From Solemya velum gill symbiont (GTDB lineage: Bacteria; Pseudomonadota; Gammaproteobacteria; Chromatiales; Chromatiaceae): a DNA stretch of 64,000 bases. The position numbers were made by a program, and so were the translations under genes. Of this stretch, positions 18,797 through 50,649 are shown one piece after another. Location: positions 248,001 through 312,000 of the forward strand of contig NZ_JRAA01000003.1 in NCBI RefSeq assembly GCF_000787395.1, given 5' to 3'. The notes below the pieces were generated by a model. The model saw nothing but the letters and a program-made list of their open reading frames with translations. It was not told the origin of the DNA and made no database searches. Each line of letters starts with the position of its first letter. Positions within the stretch are counted from its first letter, which is position 1.

Positions 18797-18854
18797 AAGA
18801 AAAAACCGATTTCCAGTGTCATACTGATATTGGCCACAGCACACAGGATTGAAC

Positions 18855-19817
18855 ATGCTGATAAAAAAACCGGATCACATCAAATTTTCAGAAATCACCA
18901 CCCAGAGTGATTACCTGCGCCGCAGGGATTTCCTCAAGAAGGGTTTATATGCCTTTGCCGGTCTTGGATTGTCAGGTATTGCAGAGGCACTGGTAAAAGC
19001 GCCCGGCAAGAATCCCGCAATCGCCAATCTTGCCGATGCAGGCTTCAGTGTTGACGAGGACCTCACTCCTTACGACCTGGTCACCAGTTACAACAACTAC
19101 TATGAATTCGGTACCGGCAAGAGTGATCCGGTCGAAAACTCGAAGGCTTTTGAGTCCCGTCCCTGGCACGTTGTTGTTGACGGAGAGTGTGAAGAGCCCG
19201 GTGAGATTGATATCGAGGATATTCTCACCGGCATCACGCAGGAGGAGCGTATCTACCGACTACGCTGTGTTGAGGCCTGGTCGATGGTGGTTCCCTGGGT
19301 TGGCTTCCCCCTTTCAACCTTGCTGAAACGCTTCAAACCCACAGCCAAGGCGAAATACGTGTCATTTGAGACCCTGCATGACGCTGAACGAATGCCTGGT
19401 CAAAAACGCGCTGTACTTGACTGGCCCTATCGTGAAGGCTTGCGTATCGACGAGGCAATGCATCCGCTGACAATTCTGGCAACCGGGCTTTATGGTGAAC
19501 TTTTGCCAAACCAGAATGGTGCCCCGTTGCGTCTTGTGGTGCCGTGGAAATACGGCTTCAAGAGTATCAAGGGGATCGTGCGCATACGTTTTAGCGAAGA
19601 GCAGCCCCAGGCAACCTGGAATATGAATAACCCACGTGAGTATGGCTTCTATTCCAATGTGAATCCGCGCGTCGAACATCCGCGCTGGAGCCAGAAGTAT
19701 CACCGTGTCATTGGTGGTGGTATTTTCTCCAGCAAGGTTAAAACAGAGATGTTCAATGGGTATGCGGATGAAGTCGCCTCACTCTATACCGGCATGGACC
19801 TGAGGAAGAATTTCTGA
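18855..19817 (+). CDS. msrP: Periplasmic methionine sulfoxide reductase, molybdopterin subunit MsrP
   Basis: Reduces methionine sulfoxide in periplasmic proteins with electrons from the membrane through MsrQ. The N-terminus has a twin-arginine signal (RRRDFLKKG, then a hydrophobic stretch to ALVKA). The sulfite-oxidase fold includes the molybdenum-ligand cysteine in YRLRCVEAWSMVVPW (Cys138). GAPLRLVVPWKYGFK is also present. Length of 320 residues and the ending MDLRKNF match the family. ATG 18855 is preferred to an in-frame TTG at 18849. It pairs with msrQ 4 bp downstream. Confidence 0.95.
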   Translation: MLIKKPDHIKFSEITTQSDYLRRRDFLKKGLYAFAGLGLSGIAEALVKAPGKNPAIANLADAGFSVDEDLTPYDLVTSYNNYYEFGTGKSDPVENSKAFESRPWHVVVDGECEEPGEIDIEDILTGITQEERIYRLRCVEAWSMVVPWVGFPLSTLLKRFKPTAKAKYVSFETLHDAERMPGQKRAVLDWPYREGLRIDEAMHPLTILATGLYGELLPNQNGAPLRLVVPWKYGFKSIKGIVRIRFSEEQPQATWNMNNPREYGFYSNVNPRVEHPRWSQKYHRVIGGGIFSSKVKTEMFNGYADEVASLYTGMDLRKNF

Positions 19818-19821
19818 TCCC

Positions 19822-20421
19822 GTGAGTAATCGATGGCGTGCGGCAGGCATCAAGCTGCTGCTGTTCCTGCTCTGTCTGCTGCCCTTCCTCTACCTGTTAT
19901 GGGATGCATTCAATGGCAATCTTGGTGCAAACCCGGTTGAGGCACTGACACATCGAAGCGGTGACTGGACGCTGCGTATGTTGCTGGTTACGCTCGCCGT
20001 GACACCCTTGCGTCGTACTACCGGTTACAGCTTGCTGCGTCACAGGCGCATGCTGGGGCTGTTCAGCTTTTTCTATGCAGTTGTTCACCTGACAATCTAC
20101 GTATGGATTGACCAGGTATTTCTGTGGGATGAGATTGTTGAGGATATCATCAAGCGCTCCTATATCACCGTCGGCTTTACAGCGCTGATGATTCTGTTGC
20201 CGTTGGCAGTCACTTCAACGCGCGGGATGCAGCGGCGTCTCGGCAAGCGCTGGAAAAGCCTGCATAAGGGCGCCTACATAGCTGCTGCGTTGGGTTGCCT
20301 CCATTTTCTATGGTTGACACGTGCCGATACGCTGGAACCCTATATCTATATCGCTGTTTTCGTTGTTTTGATGCTGCTGCGTTTGAAAAGAGAACAAATT
20401 CCAGGGTTTTTAAGGCGCTGA
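19822..20421 (+). CDS. msrQ: Haem-binding membrane subunit MsrQ
   Basis: Integral membrane b-type cytochrome-like protein that passes quinol-derived electrons to MsrP. The 199 residues contain about six hydrophobic segments of the ferric-reductase-like domain. Conserved histidines appear in FYAVVHLTIYV and in SLHKGAYIAAALGCLHFLW. The start is GTG 19822, 4 bp after msrP. Confidence 0.93.
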   Translation: MSNRWRAAGIKLLLFLLCLLPFLYLLWDAFNGNLGANPVEALTHRSGDWTLRMLLVTLAVTPLRRTTGYSLLRHRRMLGLFSFFYAVVHLTIYVWIDQVFLWDEIVEDIIKRSYITVGFTALMILLPLAVTSTRGMQRRLGKRWKSLHKGAYIAAALGCLHFLWLTRADTLEPYIYIAVFVVLMLLRLKREQIPGFLRR

Positions 20422-20569: not shown

Positions 20570-22348
20570 ATGTCAATTTCACGCCGAGAATTTATCCGTC
20601 TGATGGGGCTCGCCGGAGCTGCTGGCATGATGCCAAGCTCTGTTTTTGCTGCTGCCCGTCAACCTTCCGATCTGTACGAAGTGCCGAAGTTCGGCAACGT
20701 AACCCTGATGCATATGACTGACTGTCATGCACAGCTCAATCCTATCTATTTCCGTGAGCCGAATGTCAATCTTGGCCTCGGCCCTGCTCATGGCAAGGCA
20801 CCACACCTGGTAGGAAACTCACTTCTCAAGCATTTCAACCTTGAGCCCGGCAGTATTGAAGCACACGCCTTCACCTATCTCGGTTATGACGAGGCAGCAC
20901 ACAATTACGGCATGGTCGGTGGTTTTGCGCATCTCAAAACGTTGGTCAACAACATCCGCGACTCTCGCGGCCCGGGCAACAGCCTGCTGCTTGATGGTGG
21001 TGATACCTGGCAGGGTTCAGGAACTGCTTATTACACACGCGGTAAGGATATGGTCGGCGCCTGTAACCTGCTTGGCGTCGATGTCATGACGGGTCACTGG
21101 GAGTTTACCTATCTCGATGAAGAGGTTATCTCCAACGTCAATGATTTCAAAGGTGACTTTGTTGCGCAGAACGTTGCGGTCACAGATGACGCACTGTTTG
21201 ATTACAAATTTGCCGATTTTGAGGGTTTTGATGAAGATGAAGGCACGGCCTTTAAGCCATACACCATCAAAAATGTCGGCGGTGCCCGTGTTGCCGTCAT
21301 CGGCCAGGCTTTCCCCTATACGCCAATCGCGAATCCATCGCGCTTTATCCCGGACTGGACTTTCGGTATCCAGGATGAGCACATGCAGGGGGTTGTCGAC
21401 AGCGTACGTGAAAACGAGAACCCCGACGTGGTTGTCGTGATCTCACATAACGGCATGGATGTTGACCTCAAGATGGCGTCGCGTGTCACAGGTATCGATG
21501 CAATCTTCGGTGGCCACACCCATGATGGCGTGCCTGCTGCGATTCCGGTCAAAAATGCAGCCGGTAAAACCCTGGTTACAAATGCTGGTTCAAACGGCAA
21601 GTTCCTCGGTGTGATGGATTTCGATGTCAGAAATGGCAAGGTACAGGATTTCCGCTACCGCCTGTTGCCGGTCTTCTCCAACCTGCTTGAAGCAAACGCA
21701 GAGATGCAAACGTACATCGACGATGTCCGTGCGCCATACAAGAAGGAACTCGAAGAGGAACTCGCAACAGCAGAAGAGACACTCTATCGTCGCGGCAACT
21801 TCAACGGTACCTTCGACCAGGTTATTTGTGACGCATTGACCACGGTTAAGGATGCGCAGATTTCACTGTCACCGGGTTTCCGCTGGGGTACCACGGTACT
21901 GCCGGGTCAGAAGATCACCATGGACAATGTCATGGATCAGACCTGTATCACCTATCCTGAAACCTACCGTCGTGAAATGAGCGGTGAAGAGATCAAGCTG
22001 ATCCTCGAGGATGTGTGTGACAATCTTTTCAACGAGGACGCCTACTACCAGCAGGGTGGTGACATGGTGCGTCTGGGTGGTATGGATTACGTCTGTGATC
22101 CGACCGCCGGAATGGGTGAGCGTATCCAGGATATGACACTGAATGACGGAACCAAGATCGAAGCGGCCAAGAAGTACATGGTTGCCGGCTGGGCAACGGT
22201 TGGATCACAATCGCCCGGCGAACCGATCTGGGAAGTTGTGGCCGAGTACCTGAGAGATCAGAAAACCGTCAAGATCGACAAGCTCAATACGCCGAAACTG
22301 GTCAACGTCAAGGGCAACCCCGGGATCGAGGAGTACGTCCACGGCTGA
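20570..22348 (+). CDS. soxB: Thiosulfohydrolase SoxB
   Basis: Dimanganese enzyme that hydrolyses the sulfone group from SoxY-bound cysteine-S-thiosulfonate, releasing sulfate. ATG 20570 has GGAGGAG upstream and begins a twin-arginine signal (SRREFIRLMGLAGAAG, cut after SVFAA). The 5'-nucleotidase-type metallophosphoesterase core shows MHMTDCHAQLNP, LLDGGDTWQGSG, TGHWEFTY, VVISHNGMDVD and FGGHTHDG. The length is 592 residues, normal for SoxB. The gene is separated from soxXYZA by about 26 kb and lies 149 bp after msrQ. Confidence 0.97.
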   Translation: MSISRREFIRLMGLAGAAGMMPSSVFAAARQPSDLYEVPKFGNVTLMHMTDCHAQLNPIYFREPNVNLGLGPAHGKAPHLVGNSLLKHFNLEPGSIEAHAFTYLGYDEAAHNYGMVGGFAHLKTLVNNIRDSRGPGNSLLLDGGDTWQGSGTAYYTRGKDMVGACNLLGVDVMTGHWEFTYLDEEVISNVNDFKGDFVAQNVAVTDDALFDYKFADFEGFDEDEGTAFKPYTIKNVGGARVAVIGQAFPYTPIANPSRFIPDWTFGIQDEHMQGVVDSVRENENPDVVVVISHNGMDVDLKMASRVTGIDAIFGGHTHDGVPAAIPVKNAAGKTLVTNAGSNGKFLGVMDFDVRNGKVQDFRYRLLPVFSNLLEANAEMQTYIDDVRAPYKKELEEELATAEETLYRRGNFNGTFDQVICDALTTVKDAQISLSPGFRWGTTVLPGQKITMDNVMDQTCITYPETYRREMSGEEIKLILEDVCDNLFNEDAYYQQGGDMVRLGGMDYVCDPTAGMGERIQDMTLNDGTKIEAAKKYMVAGWATVGSQSPGEPIWEVVAEYLRDQKTVKIDKLNTPKLVNVKGNPGIEEYVHG

Positions 22349-38857: not shown

Positions 38858-39652
38858 CTAATCTGAACGGTTCTCCTCCCGGTGGCGGTAACCCAGCCGG
38901 GTGCTCTCTTCCTCTTCAGCATGCTCTTTGCTTCTCTTCTCCCGCTTTCCCGAGCGCTCTTCAATAGCCTCTTTATCCTTACGTTTAGTTGACCGGATAT
39001 TCTCACTGTGTCCATATTTTTTTCCAGAGCGGTCTGAGTGCTCTTCAACAGCTTCTTTACTCTTGTTCCGCTTTTTATTGCTTTTGGAAATCTGCTGATC
39101 GTGTCGTTGTTTCTTTGTAACAACGGCTTTATCGACTTCATTCCTCTGACGCCTGGCATCGCGATCCCTTCTTTCCCTTGGGCCATCATCGTGACGATCC
39201 CGATGATCTCTCCTGGGCTCTTCCTGACGTTCACGGTGCTTTTTGCGGCTGTTTTCGTGATCTTTGTGGAGATTATCACGCTCTCTCCGGTCACTATTCG
39301 CATCACCCCTGTGACGGTCATCACGACGATACTTCCGCTTGTGCTTGTCAAAATCACGGTAGGGCTTGCCGCCATGATGGACAATATGCCTGCGGTGCTT
39401 GTGATGTAGGCGGTAATGGCGTGGCAGGAAATGTCTTCGAATCCAGCGTCCATTGTGGATATAGAAGTAGTCACCACTGTAGATATGGAAATAGACACCT
39501 ACTCCAGGATAGAAATAGTAGTCATCATGACCATAGATATATCCCGGATAGCCAGAATAATAGCCATACGGCCCATCATCATAATAGGTCCCGACGACAC
39601 AGGCTGACAGCAGTAGAGGTGTCAGCAGAATCATTATCAGTTTGCTTTTCAT
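38858..39652 (-). CDS. His/Arg/Lys-rich lipoprotein with tyrosine-rich N-terminal segment
   Basis: Predicted lipoprotein of 264 residues. ATG 39652 is chosen because GGAGG lies upstream and a lipoprotein signal begins there (lipobox LSAC, Cys about residue 17). The mature N-terminus is rich in Tyr, Gly, His and Asp (YYDDGPYGYYSGYPGY, then YFHIYSGDYFYIHNGRWI). From about residue 85 the chain is extremely charged, mostly Arg, Lys, His, Glu and Asp with repeated ERRDRD-like runs, and looks disordered. The function is unknown. Metal binding, surface adhesion or polymer interaction are possible but unsupported. It is separated from dxs by no bases and converges with it. Confidence 0.75.
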   Translation of the reverse strand: MKSKLIMILLTPLLLSACVVGTYYDDGPYGYYSGYPGYIYGHDDYYFYPGVGVYFHIYSGDYFYIHNGRWIRRHFLPRHYRLHHKHRRHIVHHGGKPYRDFDKHKRKYRRDDRHRGDANSDRRERDNLHKDHENSRKKHRERQEEPRRDHRDRHDDGPRERRDRDARRQRNEVDKAVVTKKQRHDQQISKSNKKRNKSKEAVEEHSDRSGKKYGHSENIRSTKRKDKEAIEERSGKREKRSKEHAEEEESTRLGYRHREENRSD

Positions 39653-39722: not shown

Positions 39723-40157
39723 TTATTTTCCGGGCAGCCGCCTGAGGCATTCGAGATAGGCCTTCTCATCAGGCAAAACGCCTTTTGTCTGCGCCTCCCA
39801 AAGGCTTTTTTCCAGGCACTCCATCATGCGGTGCTCGGCATGGTGCTTGTCGGGTGATTTTTTTTGCAGGCGCTGATAGATATCCCTGATACCCGTTGGC
39901 CTGTCTGTCTGCAACTGTTCATGCAGGGAGATATGCATGCCGAGATGAAAAAATGGATTTGGACCGCCGTCGGCACCAAATTCGCTCTCAACCAGTTTTT
40001 CATCCTCCTGTTCGAACAGGGGGTGATATTCCGGATGCATGGCGATGATGTCACCGATCATCTTTTGCAGCGGTGTCAATTGAGCTCCAGGCATTCTGTA
40101 AAGCTTCCAGGCAGAGATGAACTGTTGCCTGATGGCATTGCGGTCGTTACCAAACAT
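39723..40157 (-). CDS. DUF1841 family protein
   Basis: A 144-residue cytoplasmic protein of a family known in gammaproteobacteria and betaproteobacteria without assigned function. Recognisable parts are MFGNDRNAIRQQFISAWKLY, MIGDIIAMHPEYHPLFE, NPFFHLGMHISLHEQLQTD and HRMMECLEKSLWEAQ. It contains several conserved histidines. It lies between two exported proteins on the same strand. Confidence 0.85.
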   Translation of the reverse strand: MFGNDRNAIRQQFISAWKLYRMPGAQLTPLQKMIGDIIAMHPEYHPLFEQEDEKLVESEFGADGGPNPFFHLGMHISLHEQLQTDRPTGIRDIYQRLQKKSPDKHHAEHRMMECLEKSLWEAQTKGVLPDEKAYLECLRRLPGK

Positions 40158-40168
40158 CTTATGTGCGC

Positions 40169-40723
40169 TTATCTGGGCTGTGGGTAGCCGTATTCCGGTG
40201 GATAGTATTCCATCGGCGGATAGTATTCTGCCGGGGGGTAGTAGCTATAAGCCGGTGGAGGAGGTGGGTAGTCGCTATATCCCGGCTCCTGGTAATAGTA
40301 GTTGTAATTGTAGTGGTAGACGTGGCTGCCGGCATCACTGTCACCGTCGACATCTGCATTTGCATCGACATCGAACTCTATTTCTGCAGAGATATTGAAA
40401 TCAAAATCGCCAGCTCCGCTGCCATCGACAACGCCTTCAAATGGGCCCCAGTCGCTGCGATTTCCCCACCGATCACGGCCATCCCAGTAGTCGCCTTCCC
40501 ATGGTTTGGTGCGGCGGTCAAAATCCCAGCCATCGCGCCACATCGACCAGCGACGTTCACGAGGATAGGGATTCTGTGCATAGGCAGGAGGGTAGGCATA
40601 CTCCGGAGTTGGTCGCTCACCATAAGTCGGGTATGCCGGCTGATAGTAGGGCTGAGCAGCAGTCTGGCCCGAAATCATGATCAACGCAGCTACTGATATT
40701 GACTGGATGACAGTTTTTCTCAT
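40169..40723 (-). CDS. Exported Tyr/Pro-rich protein, candidate sulfur-globule-type protein
   Basis: A 184-residue secreted protein. ATG 40723 is chosen because AGGAGAG lies upstream and a signal peptide (cut after SGQTAAQ, about residue 23) begins there. The mature chain is Tyr/Pro-rich at both ends (PYYQPAYPTYGERPTP and EYYPPMEYYPPEYGYPQP). The middle holds WSMWRDGWDFDRRTKPWEGD, then WGPFEGVVDGSGAGDFDF and a run of Asp/Ala/Val. The WGPF...GDFDF-type core resembles proteins annotated as sulfur globule family in sulfur-oxidizing gammaproteobacteria, which coat intracellular periplasmic sulfur. This is a family-memory match, not a proof. Sox without SoxCD in the window is consistent. Confidence 0.55.
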   Translation of the reverse strand: MRKTVIQSISVAALIMISGQTAAQPYYQPAYPTYGERPTPEYAYPPAYAQNPYPRERRWSMWRDGWDFDRRTKPWEGDYWDGRDRWGNRSDWGPFEGVVDGSGAGDFDFNISAEIEFDVDANADVDGDSDAGSHVYHYNYNYYYQEPGYSDYPPPPPAYSYYPPAEYYPPMEYYPPEYGYPQPR

Positions 40724-40761: not shown

Positions 40762-41601
40762 TCAATCCTTCAAGGCGGATATGGCTGCTTCTTTCAGCAA
40801 CGCCTGGCAGGTTGCAGGCAGTATCCGTTTTGGGCGTGGTTTCTTAACGGCTGGCTTGTCTGGCTGGTTTTCCGGATACCAGGCAGCCAGGTCTGCACCG
40901 CAGCCATCTCCTGCCGGGGGTGGGGATTGCGGTTTGCATTCGACTGCGCCAGCCGGGCATTTCAGGCGTACATGAAAATGAGAGTCATGCTTCCACCAGG
41001 GGCGTATCTTACTCAGCCACTTGCGACTACTCCATTTTTTCTCGCACAAGGCTTTCTTGATGGCAGGGTGCACAAATATACGTGCGACACGTTTGTCATC
41101 TGCCGCGAGCTTGATCATTTGTGCCTGCTTGTCTGTCCAGACTCTTTTGTTGACGACAAACGCTTTTTTATCAACCATGGAAACAGATTGGAGGTTGCCC
41201 TTGAGGCTATCGACATTCTTGTAGTTGAGCGGCAGCCAGATATCGGCATCAAGCCCTGTCTGGTGACTGGTGTGGCCCTTGGTAAATGGCCCGCCTCGTG
41301 GCATTGCCATGTCGGCAACCAGCATCAATCCAAGATTCTCTTTTTTGACTTTCTTACCAAGATCCTCAAGGAAATCAACAAGGTTCGGATGGCCGTAATT
41401 CCGTTTCCGATTGAGTCGTACAACCTGGTAACCCTTTCCTTTTGCTGACAGGGCCTCGGCGCCAATCAGGCAGCCGTTGGCATAGCTGCCGATCGGTTCA
41501 GGTGTCCTTTCCAGCGGCGACTGGAACTTTTCCCATGAATTCGGGGCGGCACAGACCGCGCCGGAAAATAATATGGCAAGCAGGGACAGGTTGCGGATCA
41601 T
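40762..41601 (-). CDS. mepA: Penicillin-insensitive murein endopeptidase MepA
   Basis: Periplasmic LAS-family zinc endopeptidase that cuts peptide cross-links in peptidoglycan. A signal peptide (cut about AVCA-A, residue 18) precedes a mature protein with the metal-binding GHTSHQTGLDADIW and the second site WWKHDSHFHVRLKCP. The C-terminal extension after the core is Pro/Lys-rich with a conserved cysteine-containing end. The length of 279 residues is normal. Confidence 0.93.
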   Translation of the reverse strand: MIRNLSLLAILFSGAVCAAPNSWEKFQSPLERTPEPIGSYANGCLIGAEALSAKGKGYQVVRLNRKRNYGHPNLVDFLEDLGKKVKKENLGLMLVADMAMPRGGPFTKGHTSHQTGLDADIWLPLNYKNVDSLKGNLQSVSMVDKKAFVVNKRVWTDKQAQMIKLAADDKRVARIFVHPAIKKALCEKKWSSRKWLSKIRPWWKHDSHFHVRLKCPAGAVECKPQSPPPAGDGCGADLAAWYPENQPDKPAVKKPRPKRILPATCQALLKEAAISALKD

Positions 41602-48842: not shown

Positions 48843-49694
48843 TTATTTACGTGCAGACGGTCCGTTGAACTCGATTCCATTACTCATGTGAGTCAGGAAG
48901 TACTCGAGATTACGATACTCTTTGCTCTGCGCCTTGAATGGCTTGGCACGAACCTGCTTGTTACAACCACCGAAACGACGGTGCAGTGTACCCAGGTTGC
49001 CCCACTTTGAACGGTACACTGGCCAGCCAGTGGTGTGTCCTAGTCCAGGGCTCAGGATATCAGTACGTACGTGCATGCCAGAGCTCTGCATGTGACAACT
49101 TGCACAAGCGAAGTTCAACTGGCCGCGACGGCTGAAATACTGGCTCTTGCCTTCATTGTAGGCTGCCAGTGCATCCGCATCGCCTTCAGGTATAACAACG
49201 TTGGTTGTCTGACCGCGTGACTCGTAACCCATGTATGCGAGCAGGGAAGCGATTGCGCCTACTTTCCATTTCAGAGGTTTCTCGCCATTGGCCTCACGAC
49301 ACTCGTTAATTGCGAGCGGCAAGGTAACAACCATTTTGCGTTTCGCATCCCAGTGTGGATAGTTCTTGCGCTGTGCAGGACCATCCTTGAAGCAGTCAGC
49401 GTAGCCTTTGCCGTTGGCAAATGGTGTGTTCCACAACTCTTCACCTTCCTCGATGAAAGGTTCGTATGGCGGGAATTCCTCGATAGCTTCCCAACTGTCA
49501 CGGGAAACCTTGTCAATGGCGTAAACACCATTGGAAAACTCCTGCAGTGGCACACCTGGAAATTTTTTGGTGAAGTAGCTGCGGTAGGTCTCGATATCTT
49601 GTGCCGGTGTTGTATCAGCGGCATTTTTTGCGACAACGGTGCTGGAGAGCCCGACGACGCACAGTATTGCTATTGCGACAACTGTCTTTTTCAT
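48843..49694 (-). CDS. soxA: L-cysteine S-thiosulfotransferase subunit SoxA
   Basis: Haem c subunit of SoxXA, which couples thiosulfate to the SoxY cysteine. A signal peptide (cut about residue 22) is followed by a mature protein with one haem-binding CASCH (197-201) and the active-site/ligand Cys244 in FGGCNKQ. The N-terminal half keeps only Cys101 and Cys132 and no second CxxCH, so this is the single-haem SoxA type. The length is 283 residues. It is the last gene of soxXYZA, 89 bp after soxZ. Confidence 0.96.
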   Translation of the reverse strand: MKKTVVAIAILCVVGLSSTVVAKNAADTTPAQDIETYRSYFTKKFPGVPLQEFSNGVYAIDKVSRDSWEAIEEFPPYEPFIEEGEELWNTPFANGKGYADCFKDGPAQRKNYPHWDAKRKMVVTLPLAINECREANGEKPLKWKVGAIASLLAYMGYESRGQTTNVVIPEGDADALAAYNEGKSQYFSRRGQLNFACASCHMQSSGMHVRTDILSPGLGHTTGWPVYRSKWGNLGTLHRRFGGCNKQVRAKPFKAQSKEYRNLEYFLTHMSNGIEFNGPSARK

Positions 49695-49783: not shown

Positions 49784-50116
49784 TTATTTTTTGCCCTTGA
49801 TCTTGACTTCGTTCGAGTCGCTGCCACCCTTGTTATCAGTCCAGGAGACCTTGACCATTTCACCGTTCGCTCCGCCTTTGAAGGAGAATGACAGGTATGG
49901 GTCCTTGGAAACACCACCAGACCATGATGTGGTGATGACAACTTTGCCGTTGTACTCGCCAACAACTTCCTGGATGAAGTGCTCAGGGATGTTTTCGCCG
50001 GTTTTCTTGTTCTTACGCTGGCCGGTTTCCATTGGGTGAGACATCAGCGCCTTAACGGTTGTGACGCCGTTCTTTTCTTTAGCTCTCAGTTTGATTGAGC
50101 TTTTAGCCTTAGCCAT
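49784..50116 (-). CDS. soxZ: Sulfur carrier partner SoxZ
   Basis: Partner of SoxY in the periplasmic sulfur carrier SoxYZ. The 110-residue protein has no signal peptide of its own (it is co-exported with SoxY by the twin-arginine system). Recognisable parts are IKLRAKEKNGVTTVKALMSH, ETGQRKNKKTGENIPEHFI, DPYLSFSFKGGANGEMVKV and SWTDNKGGSDSNEV. It lies 59 bp after soxY. Confidence 0.96.
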   Translation of the reverse strand: MAKAKSSIKLRAKEKNGVTTVKALMSHPMETGQRKNKKTGENIPEHFIQEVVGEYNGKVVITTSWSGGVSKDPYLSFSFKGGANGEMVKVSWTDNKGGSDSNEVKIKGKK

Positions 50117-50175: not shown

Positions 50176-50649
50176 TTAACCGCCACAACCGCCGATGGTG
50201 ACTTTGACTTCTTTCTTGGCGGTATAAACCTTATCGCCAGCCTGTACCAAGGCAATGACGTCACCGGTTTTACCCATTTTGATACGTGTGCTGACGTCAG
50301 CTACTGTGCTTTCGCCCAGTGCGAAACTTGCAACCATCGGGGATGGGTTGCTTGCAGCAAGGATCGAGATGGCTGTGACACCGGCAATGCTACTTGAAAC
50401 TGAAACTGGTACAACAGCACCATTCTCAGCGATTTCAGGCGCCTTGATCTTGATATCTGCACTCTCTTCAGTTGCATCTGTTCCGGTCTGTGCCTTTATG
50501 GCATCCGCAACAGTTTTTGATCTGAAAGCGGCTTCATTCCACTCGGCAAGTACGGCCTGTGGCGCGATCAGTCCTGCGCCAGCAGCTGCAACAACAGCAC
50601 CGGCAGCAGCAGAGCCTTTCAGAAAAACTCGGCGTTTTACATCGATCAT
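50176..50649 (-). CDS. soxY: Sulfur carrier protein SoxY
   Basis: Carries pathway intermediates on a C-terminal cysteine. The 157-residue precursor has a twin-arginine signal (KRRVFLKGSAAAGAVVAA, cut near AVLA) and ends in the diagnostic GGCGG with the swinging-arm Cys155. The internal segment IAENGAVVPVSVSSSI is typical of the family. It is the second gene of the operon, 39 bp after soxX. Confidence 0.97.
   Translation of the reverse strand: MIDVKRRVFLKGSAAAGAVVAAAGAGLIAPQAVLAEWNEAAFRSKTVADAIKAQTGTDATEESADIKIKAPEIAENGAVVPVSVSSSIAGVTAISILAASNPSPMVASFALGESTVADVSTRIKMGKTGDVIALVQAGDKVYTAKKEVKVTIGGCGG

Follow-up and report, generated by a model that had tools for sequence, protein, structure and literature searches.

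P0001, a divergent tyrosine- and proline-rich protein of the Solemya velum gill symbiont, as a candidate coat protein of zero-valent sulfur

We analyzed a window of 64,000 nucleotides from the genome of the sulfide-oxidizing gill symbiont of the clam Solemya velum, in which the gene for a tyrosine- and proline-rich protein, termed P0001, lies between mepA and the gene for a DUF1841 protein. The three genes form a tight array on one strand: mepA, upstream, is separated from P0001 by 38 nt, and the DUF1841 gene, downstream, by 11 nt. The features of the locus are as follows.

40762..41601, minus strand: mepA, penicillin-insensitive murein endopeptidase (NF006947, 341 bits; PF03411, 320 bits)
40169..40723, minus strand: P0001, a 184-residue Tyr/Pro-rich protein with a sulfur-globule-like core (ORF from ATG to stop; coding test)
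40655..40723, minus strand: candidate Sec signal peptide, residues 1-23 (MRKTV..VAALIMIS..TAA; by-eye reading of the sequence)
40493..40654, minus strand: N-terminal segment rich in Tyr/Pro and Arg/Trp, residues 24-77
40388..40492, minus strand: conserved core, residues 78-112 (WGNR..DWGPF..VDG.G.GDFDFNIS; alignments A2 and A4, shuffles on residues 78-150)
40328..40387, minus strand: acidic stretch, residues 113-132, EFDVDANADVDGD, with a counterpart in L128, a sulfur globule protein (SGP) of the same genome (alignment to L128)
40172..40327, minus strand: tail, residues 133-184, Tyr-rich and then built of YYPPxE hexads
39723..40157, minus strand: DUF1841 protein (PF08897, 155.6 bits)

P0001 is coding and under purifying selection. 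Comparison with the gene of the Solemya elarraichensis gill symbiont gave a dN/dS of 0.134 over 121 codons, with 7, 5, and 28 differences at the first, second, and third codon positions, respectively (third positions, 28 of 40), and the same comparison for mepA, which is 85% identical to its S. elarraichensis symbiont copy, gave 0.113 over 120 codons. The ATG at 40723 is preceded by GGAGAG; the longest ORF instead opens at a TTG at 40765. An ORF on the opposite strand (40163-40696) is open in the window, but its frame gave a dN/dS of 2.18 and, across the 363 bases compared, has two stops here and six in the relative. Scans for promoters and terminators returned counts near the shuffle means. 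The initial annotation had described an exported Tyr/Pro-rich protein with a WGPF...GDFDF core, and both motifs (residues 92-95 and 105-109) and the composition were found as described, with the export signal read by eye. Tyr accounts for 16% of the mature protein, Pro for 15.5%, and Asp for 11%; it contains no Cys and shows a YYPP hexad periodicity at its C-terminus. The AlphaFold model (five rows; mean pLDDT 45.1, pTM 0.12) showed no ordered structure and no helix and is uninformative.

Relatives of P0001 were sought with the protein, with its core, and with profiles. When P0001 was searched against 55 related genomes, nothing was found outside its own genus at E ≤ 0.001. The core alone as the query found a protein from another genus of the family (in genome G002; E = 2.6e-4), which appears by eye to be exported, carries the common core together with an OmpA domain (74.6 bits), and weakly matches TSP3. 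Sixteen weaker matches from the core search were set aside; 15 of these looked by eye like chance frames, and L022 was the PF17228 (Sulphur globule protein) protein of its own genome. Among 210 genomes of the same family, a three-row profile (A2) matched 15 at E ≤ 0.1, and an eight-row profile (A4) matched 48 at E ≤ 0.02. Strong A4 relatives (E < 1e-10) were present in 14 of the 210 genomes, exclusively from the genera g1, g2, g7, and g29, and the A4 rows were themselves drawn from 8 of those 14. Of 369 genomes drawn from across the class, A4 matched 23 at E ≤ 0.02, 21 of which were from outside the family with none better than 3.2e-5. Relatives were not found in viral contigs or plasmids. OmpA-fused relatives were identified at G002/L008, G151/L057, G152/L058, G207/L059, and G171/L065, with a weaker one at G060/L160; the OmpA domain is confirmed by Pfam in G002 and L160 and was recognized by eye in the others, certain frames being cut by contig ends. 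The symbiont's own genome yielded two A4 matches, P0001 and one PF17228 protein, and no OmpA-fused form. The likeness of the P0001 core (residues 78-150) to its relatives exceeds composition, and the controls strongly back this link. Against a profile of all other relatives the core scored 53.1 bits, compared with a maximum of 36.2 for 1000 local shuffles and 17.4 for the reversed sequence, and against the OmpA-fused g7/g29 group alone it scored 31.0 bits, compared with a maximum of 14.6 for 1000 shuffles and 16.0 for the reversed sequence.

The position of the gene is conserved. In MAG_Ve_Sed_28 (L137, identical in sequence to G148/L060), a relative without OmpA is flanked immediately by mepA and a DUF1841-like ORF, the same arrangement as for P0001 (DUF1841 recognized by eye). 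DUF1841 comes right after the relative in G002, and a DUF1841-like ORF, again recognized by eye, follows the relatives of G151 (L057) and G152 (L058). At L139 and L140, mepA is followed by one ORF, a rhodanese-like ORF, and then the OmpA-fused relative. With DUF1841 as the anchor in other genera, no Tyr-rich ORF was present upstream on the same strand in 30 loci of 55 matching genomes, where the filter was at least 80 codons and more than 7% Tyr and contig ends cut some loci. Neither mepA nor DUF1841 is known to have a sulfur role. Several nearby genes were recorded. In genus g2, the gene immediately upstream of the OmpA-fused relative encodes a rhodanese-like protein that by eye is anchored in the membrane (L008:293-1114, L057, L058, and L069; L008 scored 48.8 bits with Rhodanese, and the other three were recognized by eye). 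A lipoprotein predicted by eye at 38858-39652 (minus strand) of the window combines a Tyr-rich N-terminal part with a long tail full of charged residues, and it matched nothing in NCBIfam or Pfam. An exported Gly/Tyr repeat ORF adjoins DUF1841 on the opposite strand in G067 (L043) and has no PF17228 match.

P0001 itself was compared with PF17228, a model which we take to have been built on SgpA/B of Allochromatium vinosum and which has a Pfam gathering cut-off of 26.7 bits. The profile search that the initial annotation had proposed as its check came back empty for P0001: Pfam returned a single irrelevant match and did not return PF17228 even at E ≤ 10, NCBIfam gave no match, and PDB chains gave nothing useful. 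The symbiont genome has seven PF17228 places at E ≤ 10, five of them over the cut-off, and P0001 is absent from all seven. The mature protein and its core also scored no better against 30 broad SGPs (defined below) than their own local shuffles, 794 and 104 of 1000 of which, respectively, were as high. On the basis of these results we rejected PF17228 membership, and by the profile test P0001 is not a member because it had no match at E ≤ 10. It does have the general features of such proteins, namely low-complexity sequence with aromatic, regularly spaced residues and no catalytic domain. Among the PF17228 places of the genome, G000:C1:617809-618803 (L070, L119, and L128) holds a tandem PF17228 pair followed by an exported coiled-coil ORF that is SgpD-like by eye. 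The PF17228 genes at G000:C3:77696-77983 (L113) and C3:337667-337954 (L106) encode the same protein within an exact 534-base block whose flanks differ, and this block is a recent duplication or conversion. In genera g4 and g7 (L161, L164, L166, L168, and L173), a sulfur-globule core is joined to a long coiled-coil-like tail, and L161 and L164 exceed the PF17228 cut-off.

Some relatives of P0001 came closer to PF17228. Two in the conserved slot scored 19.7-21.0 bits (G148) and 21.8 bits (G152), both below the cut-off, and the slot relatives G002:C20 and G151:C67 gave no match at E ≤ 10. A relative at G151:C295 scored 10.8 bits (E = 1.39), and neither the N-terminal part of the G207 protein nor the OmpA-fused L160 matched PF17228. 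Among ORFs retrieved with A4, 15 of 16 from the same family (A6) and 11 of 18 from the class-wide set (A7) matched PF17228 at E ≤ 0.01; these 34 are the weaker matches at loci other than the strong ones and a subset of all A4 matches, and of ten hand-picked from them and scanned first, eight were over the cut-off. The proposed likeness to the sulfur globule family is therefore supported in part: its profile test fails for P0001 itself, but two of the relatives match below threshold and the profile of the relatives' cores recovers many PF17228 proteins.

Because low-complexity proteins inflate scores, three kinds of control were applied: local shuffling in blocks of 10, sequence reversal, and permutation of profile columns. 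The targets were the lineage SGPs, which are 17 proteins from g1 and g2 with a PF17228 match (7 exceed the cut-off and 10 fall short of it), and the broad SGPs, which are the 30 top PF17228 matches, all over the cut-off. Against the lineage SGPs, the G002 relative scored 86.7 bits without null2 (maximum of 1000 local shuffles, 59.1; reversed, 61.2) and 37.4 with null2 (shuffle maximum, 24.7; reversed, -5.3). Against the broad SGPs, the G148 relative scored 53.2 bits without null2 (maximum of 1000 local shuffles, 49.9; reversed, 17.6), and its null2 score was reached by 3 of 1000 local shuffles. The null2 scores of G148 against the lineage SGPs and of G002 against the broad SGPs were reached by 603 and 299 of 1000 local shuffles, respectively, and for G207 the reversed sequence beat the real one. 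The P0001 core scored 22.8 bits against the lineage SGPs, a value reached by none of 1000 shuffles (maximum, 20.2), and the mature protein scored 24.4 (reversed, 21.6), with 11 of 1000 local shuffles scoring as high, or 14 when null2 was applied. A two-row model of P0001 and its G001 relative scored 20.0 against the lineage SGPs (reversed, 11.0; 0 of 100 permutations as high) and 7.6 against the broad SGPs (reversed, 3.2; 2 of 100). When the OmpA-fused rows were added to this model, the reversed lineage SGPs (26.4) outscored the real ones (21.3), showing that composition accounts for part of the likeness. Column-permuted A4 never attained the real means for the 17 lineage SGPs, the 30 broad SGPs, or 17 chosen from the 34 weaker matches. 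These results make the chain from P0001 through its relatives to the SGPs sturdier than the direct comparison; the controls partly back the link from relatives to SGPs, and the direct link of P0001 to the SGPs is weak.

The sulfur oxidation genes in the window are as follows.

20579..22306, plus strand: soxB (TIGR04486, 880.8 bits at G000:C4:268579-270306)
48843..49694, minus strand: soxA (TIGR04484, 233 bits)
49805..50089, minus strand: soxZ (PF08770, 123.8 bits)
50176..50649, minus strand: soxY (PF13501, 116.6 bits)

Just before soxB, at 18849-20421 (plus strand), lie genes for a molybdopterin oxidoreductase and a ferric-reductase-like membrane protein, an MsrPQ-like pair. DsrA was found in the same genome as P0001. 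SoxCD is lacking according to the available text of the genome paper (PMC4287430), and on that basis the host of P0001 has a truncated Sox set together with rDsr. Bacteria with truncated Sox deposit sulfur, yet none is microscopically detectable in S. velum or its symbiont, a puzzle in that 2014 paper, whose authors suggest rapid consumption or storage in a hardly observable form (available text of PMC4287430); the term "sgp" is absent from its main text. The initial annotation had argued that a Sox set without SoxCD predicts a globule protein. Such a gene set is present, with SoxA, SoxYZ, and SoxB in the window and SoxCD lacking by the account in PMC4287430, but the prediction of P0001 from it is inferential, and visible sulfur is not reported. 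Among the 14 genomes with strong relatives, SoxB and DsrA were each detected in 13 (E ≤ 0.001), with at least one of the two in every genome; SoxB was missing only in G148 (56% complete), with only sub-cut-off pieces in G151, and DsrA was missing only in G002 (83% complete). SoxB was present in 26 of all 30 genomes checked, and three of the four lacking it (G427, G526, and G311) have weak matches that look different. The annotation had counted a lack of similarity to globule proteins together with occurrence in non-sulfur bacteria as evidence against a globule protein; this combination was not encountered, as the strong relatives are confined to same-family genomes, each with SoxB or DsrA. PF17228 is present in 187 of 204 same-family genomes, and SoxB and DsrA were counted in relative-bearing genomes only, so this co-occurrence is weak evidence.

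On balance, we favor the interpretation, with a probability slightly above one half (approximately 0.54), that P0001 is a divergent, probably disordered periplasmic coat protein of zero-valent sulfur particles, perhaps tiny or transient ones. It is rather unlikely that P0001 is instead a general, wall-associated envelope protein that works alongside MepA, either as peptidoglycan grows or in spacing the envelope, and has no tie to sulfur. The short gaps to mepA and DUF1841, the peptidoglycan-binding OmpA domain of several relatives, and the weak direct similarity of P0001 to PF17228 would all fit such a function, but many PF17228 proteins are picked up by the profile built on the relatives, the strong relatives are confined to genomes with SoxB or DsrA, and at the g7/g29 loci L059, L065, and L066 neither mepA nor DUF1841 was seen by eye within about 1 kb of the relative. 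It is less probable still that P0001 is a convergent low-complexity secreted protein, such as a surface, matrix, or host-contact polymer, that is alike to SGPs in composition only. Composition does make up a large share of the scores in the controls, and such Tyr/Pro hexads resemble plant extensins, but the core matches relatives from other genera in an order-specific way (none of 1000 local shuffles scored as high), and MAGs, including one whose name points to sediment, contain relatives as well. We consider it highly improbable that P0001 is a relic coat protein left over from a lineage that formerly stored sulfur, for although visible sulfur is unreported in S. velum or its symbiont (available text of PMC4287430), the dN/dS of P0001 is similar to that of mepA and several PF17228 frames are free of stops, two with the common 534-base block.

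If P0001 is a sulfur coat protein, its signal sequence would direct export to the periplasm, where the probably disordered, aromatic and proline-rich chain would help to form a proteinaceous skin around the zero-valent sulfur that Sox without SoxCD produces and rDsr later consumes. P0001 would act like SgpA/B/C, as a structural coat and not an enzyme, and packing against sulfur or against fellow coat proteins would fall to the core shared with sulfur-globule-type proteins. In the relatives, the added OmpA domain may tether the core to peptidoglycan; P0001 lacks such a tether and would therefore be a free coat component. Since such coated particles are unreported in the S. velum symbiont, they would have to be small or short-lived. 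The globule proteins of A. vinosum are exported and structural, and mutants without SgpB and SgpC form no sulfur inclusions, according to the portions of PMC10386293 available. A broader conjecture, which we regard as doubtful, is that sulfur-globule-type cores are modular (alone, with a coiled coil, or with OmpA), that OmpA tethers the globule skin to the wall, and that the Solemya symbiont retains only forms without a tether, one of them produced together with a murein endopeptidase, which coat particles too small for microscopy.

P0001 thus appears from its sequence to be a divergent relative of known sulfur-globule-type proteins, not a PF17228 member by profile. Taken with the five PF17228 places over the cut-off, it turns the existence of a hidden sulfur pool in the symbiont into a directed question for proteomics and spectroscopy. 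The OmpA-fused relatives suggest a possible means of retaining globules within the periplasm; neither these fusions nor Solemya sgp genes were described in the literature searched, which was poor in subscription papers and consisted partly of incomplete texts (including PMC7787665, PMC6908572, PMC11237559, and PMC10892978). The vesicle proteins of C. tepidum include an OmpA family protein, and porin roles in extracellular globules were suggested by the authors (available text of PMC12285230).

Compared with its OmpA-fused relatives, P0001 has the same kind of candidate signal peptide, aromatic and proline-rich arms, and core, and in g2 also the same place before DUF1841, but it lacks their TSP3-like stretch and peptidoglycan-binding OmpA domain. 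It resembles SgpD of A. vinosum in its apparent export, in its regularly spaced prolines, and in its proposed structural character, whereas SgpD is predicted to be helical and P0001 is helix-free in a low-confidence model with a mean pLDDT of 45 (for SgpD, available text of PMC10386293). P0001 differs from SgpA, SgpB, and SgpC, the PF17228 proteins, in being Tyr/Pro-rich and Gly-poor (8.7% versus 13-19% in five lineage SGPs), in the long Tyr/Pro arms that flank its core, and in the strongly acidic stretch that follows the core. Like them, it is small, apparently exported, aromatic-rich, devoid of a catalytic domain, and found in a host with truncated Sox and rDsr, and the W-G ... G-D-F-x-F-N pattern of its core is also seen in PF17228 proteins.
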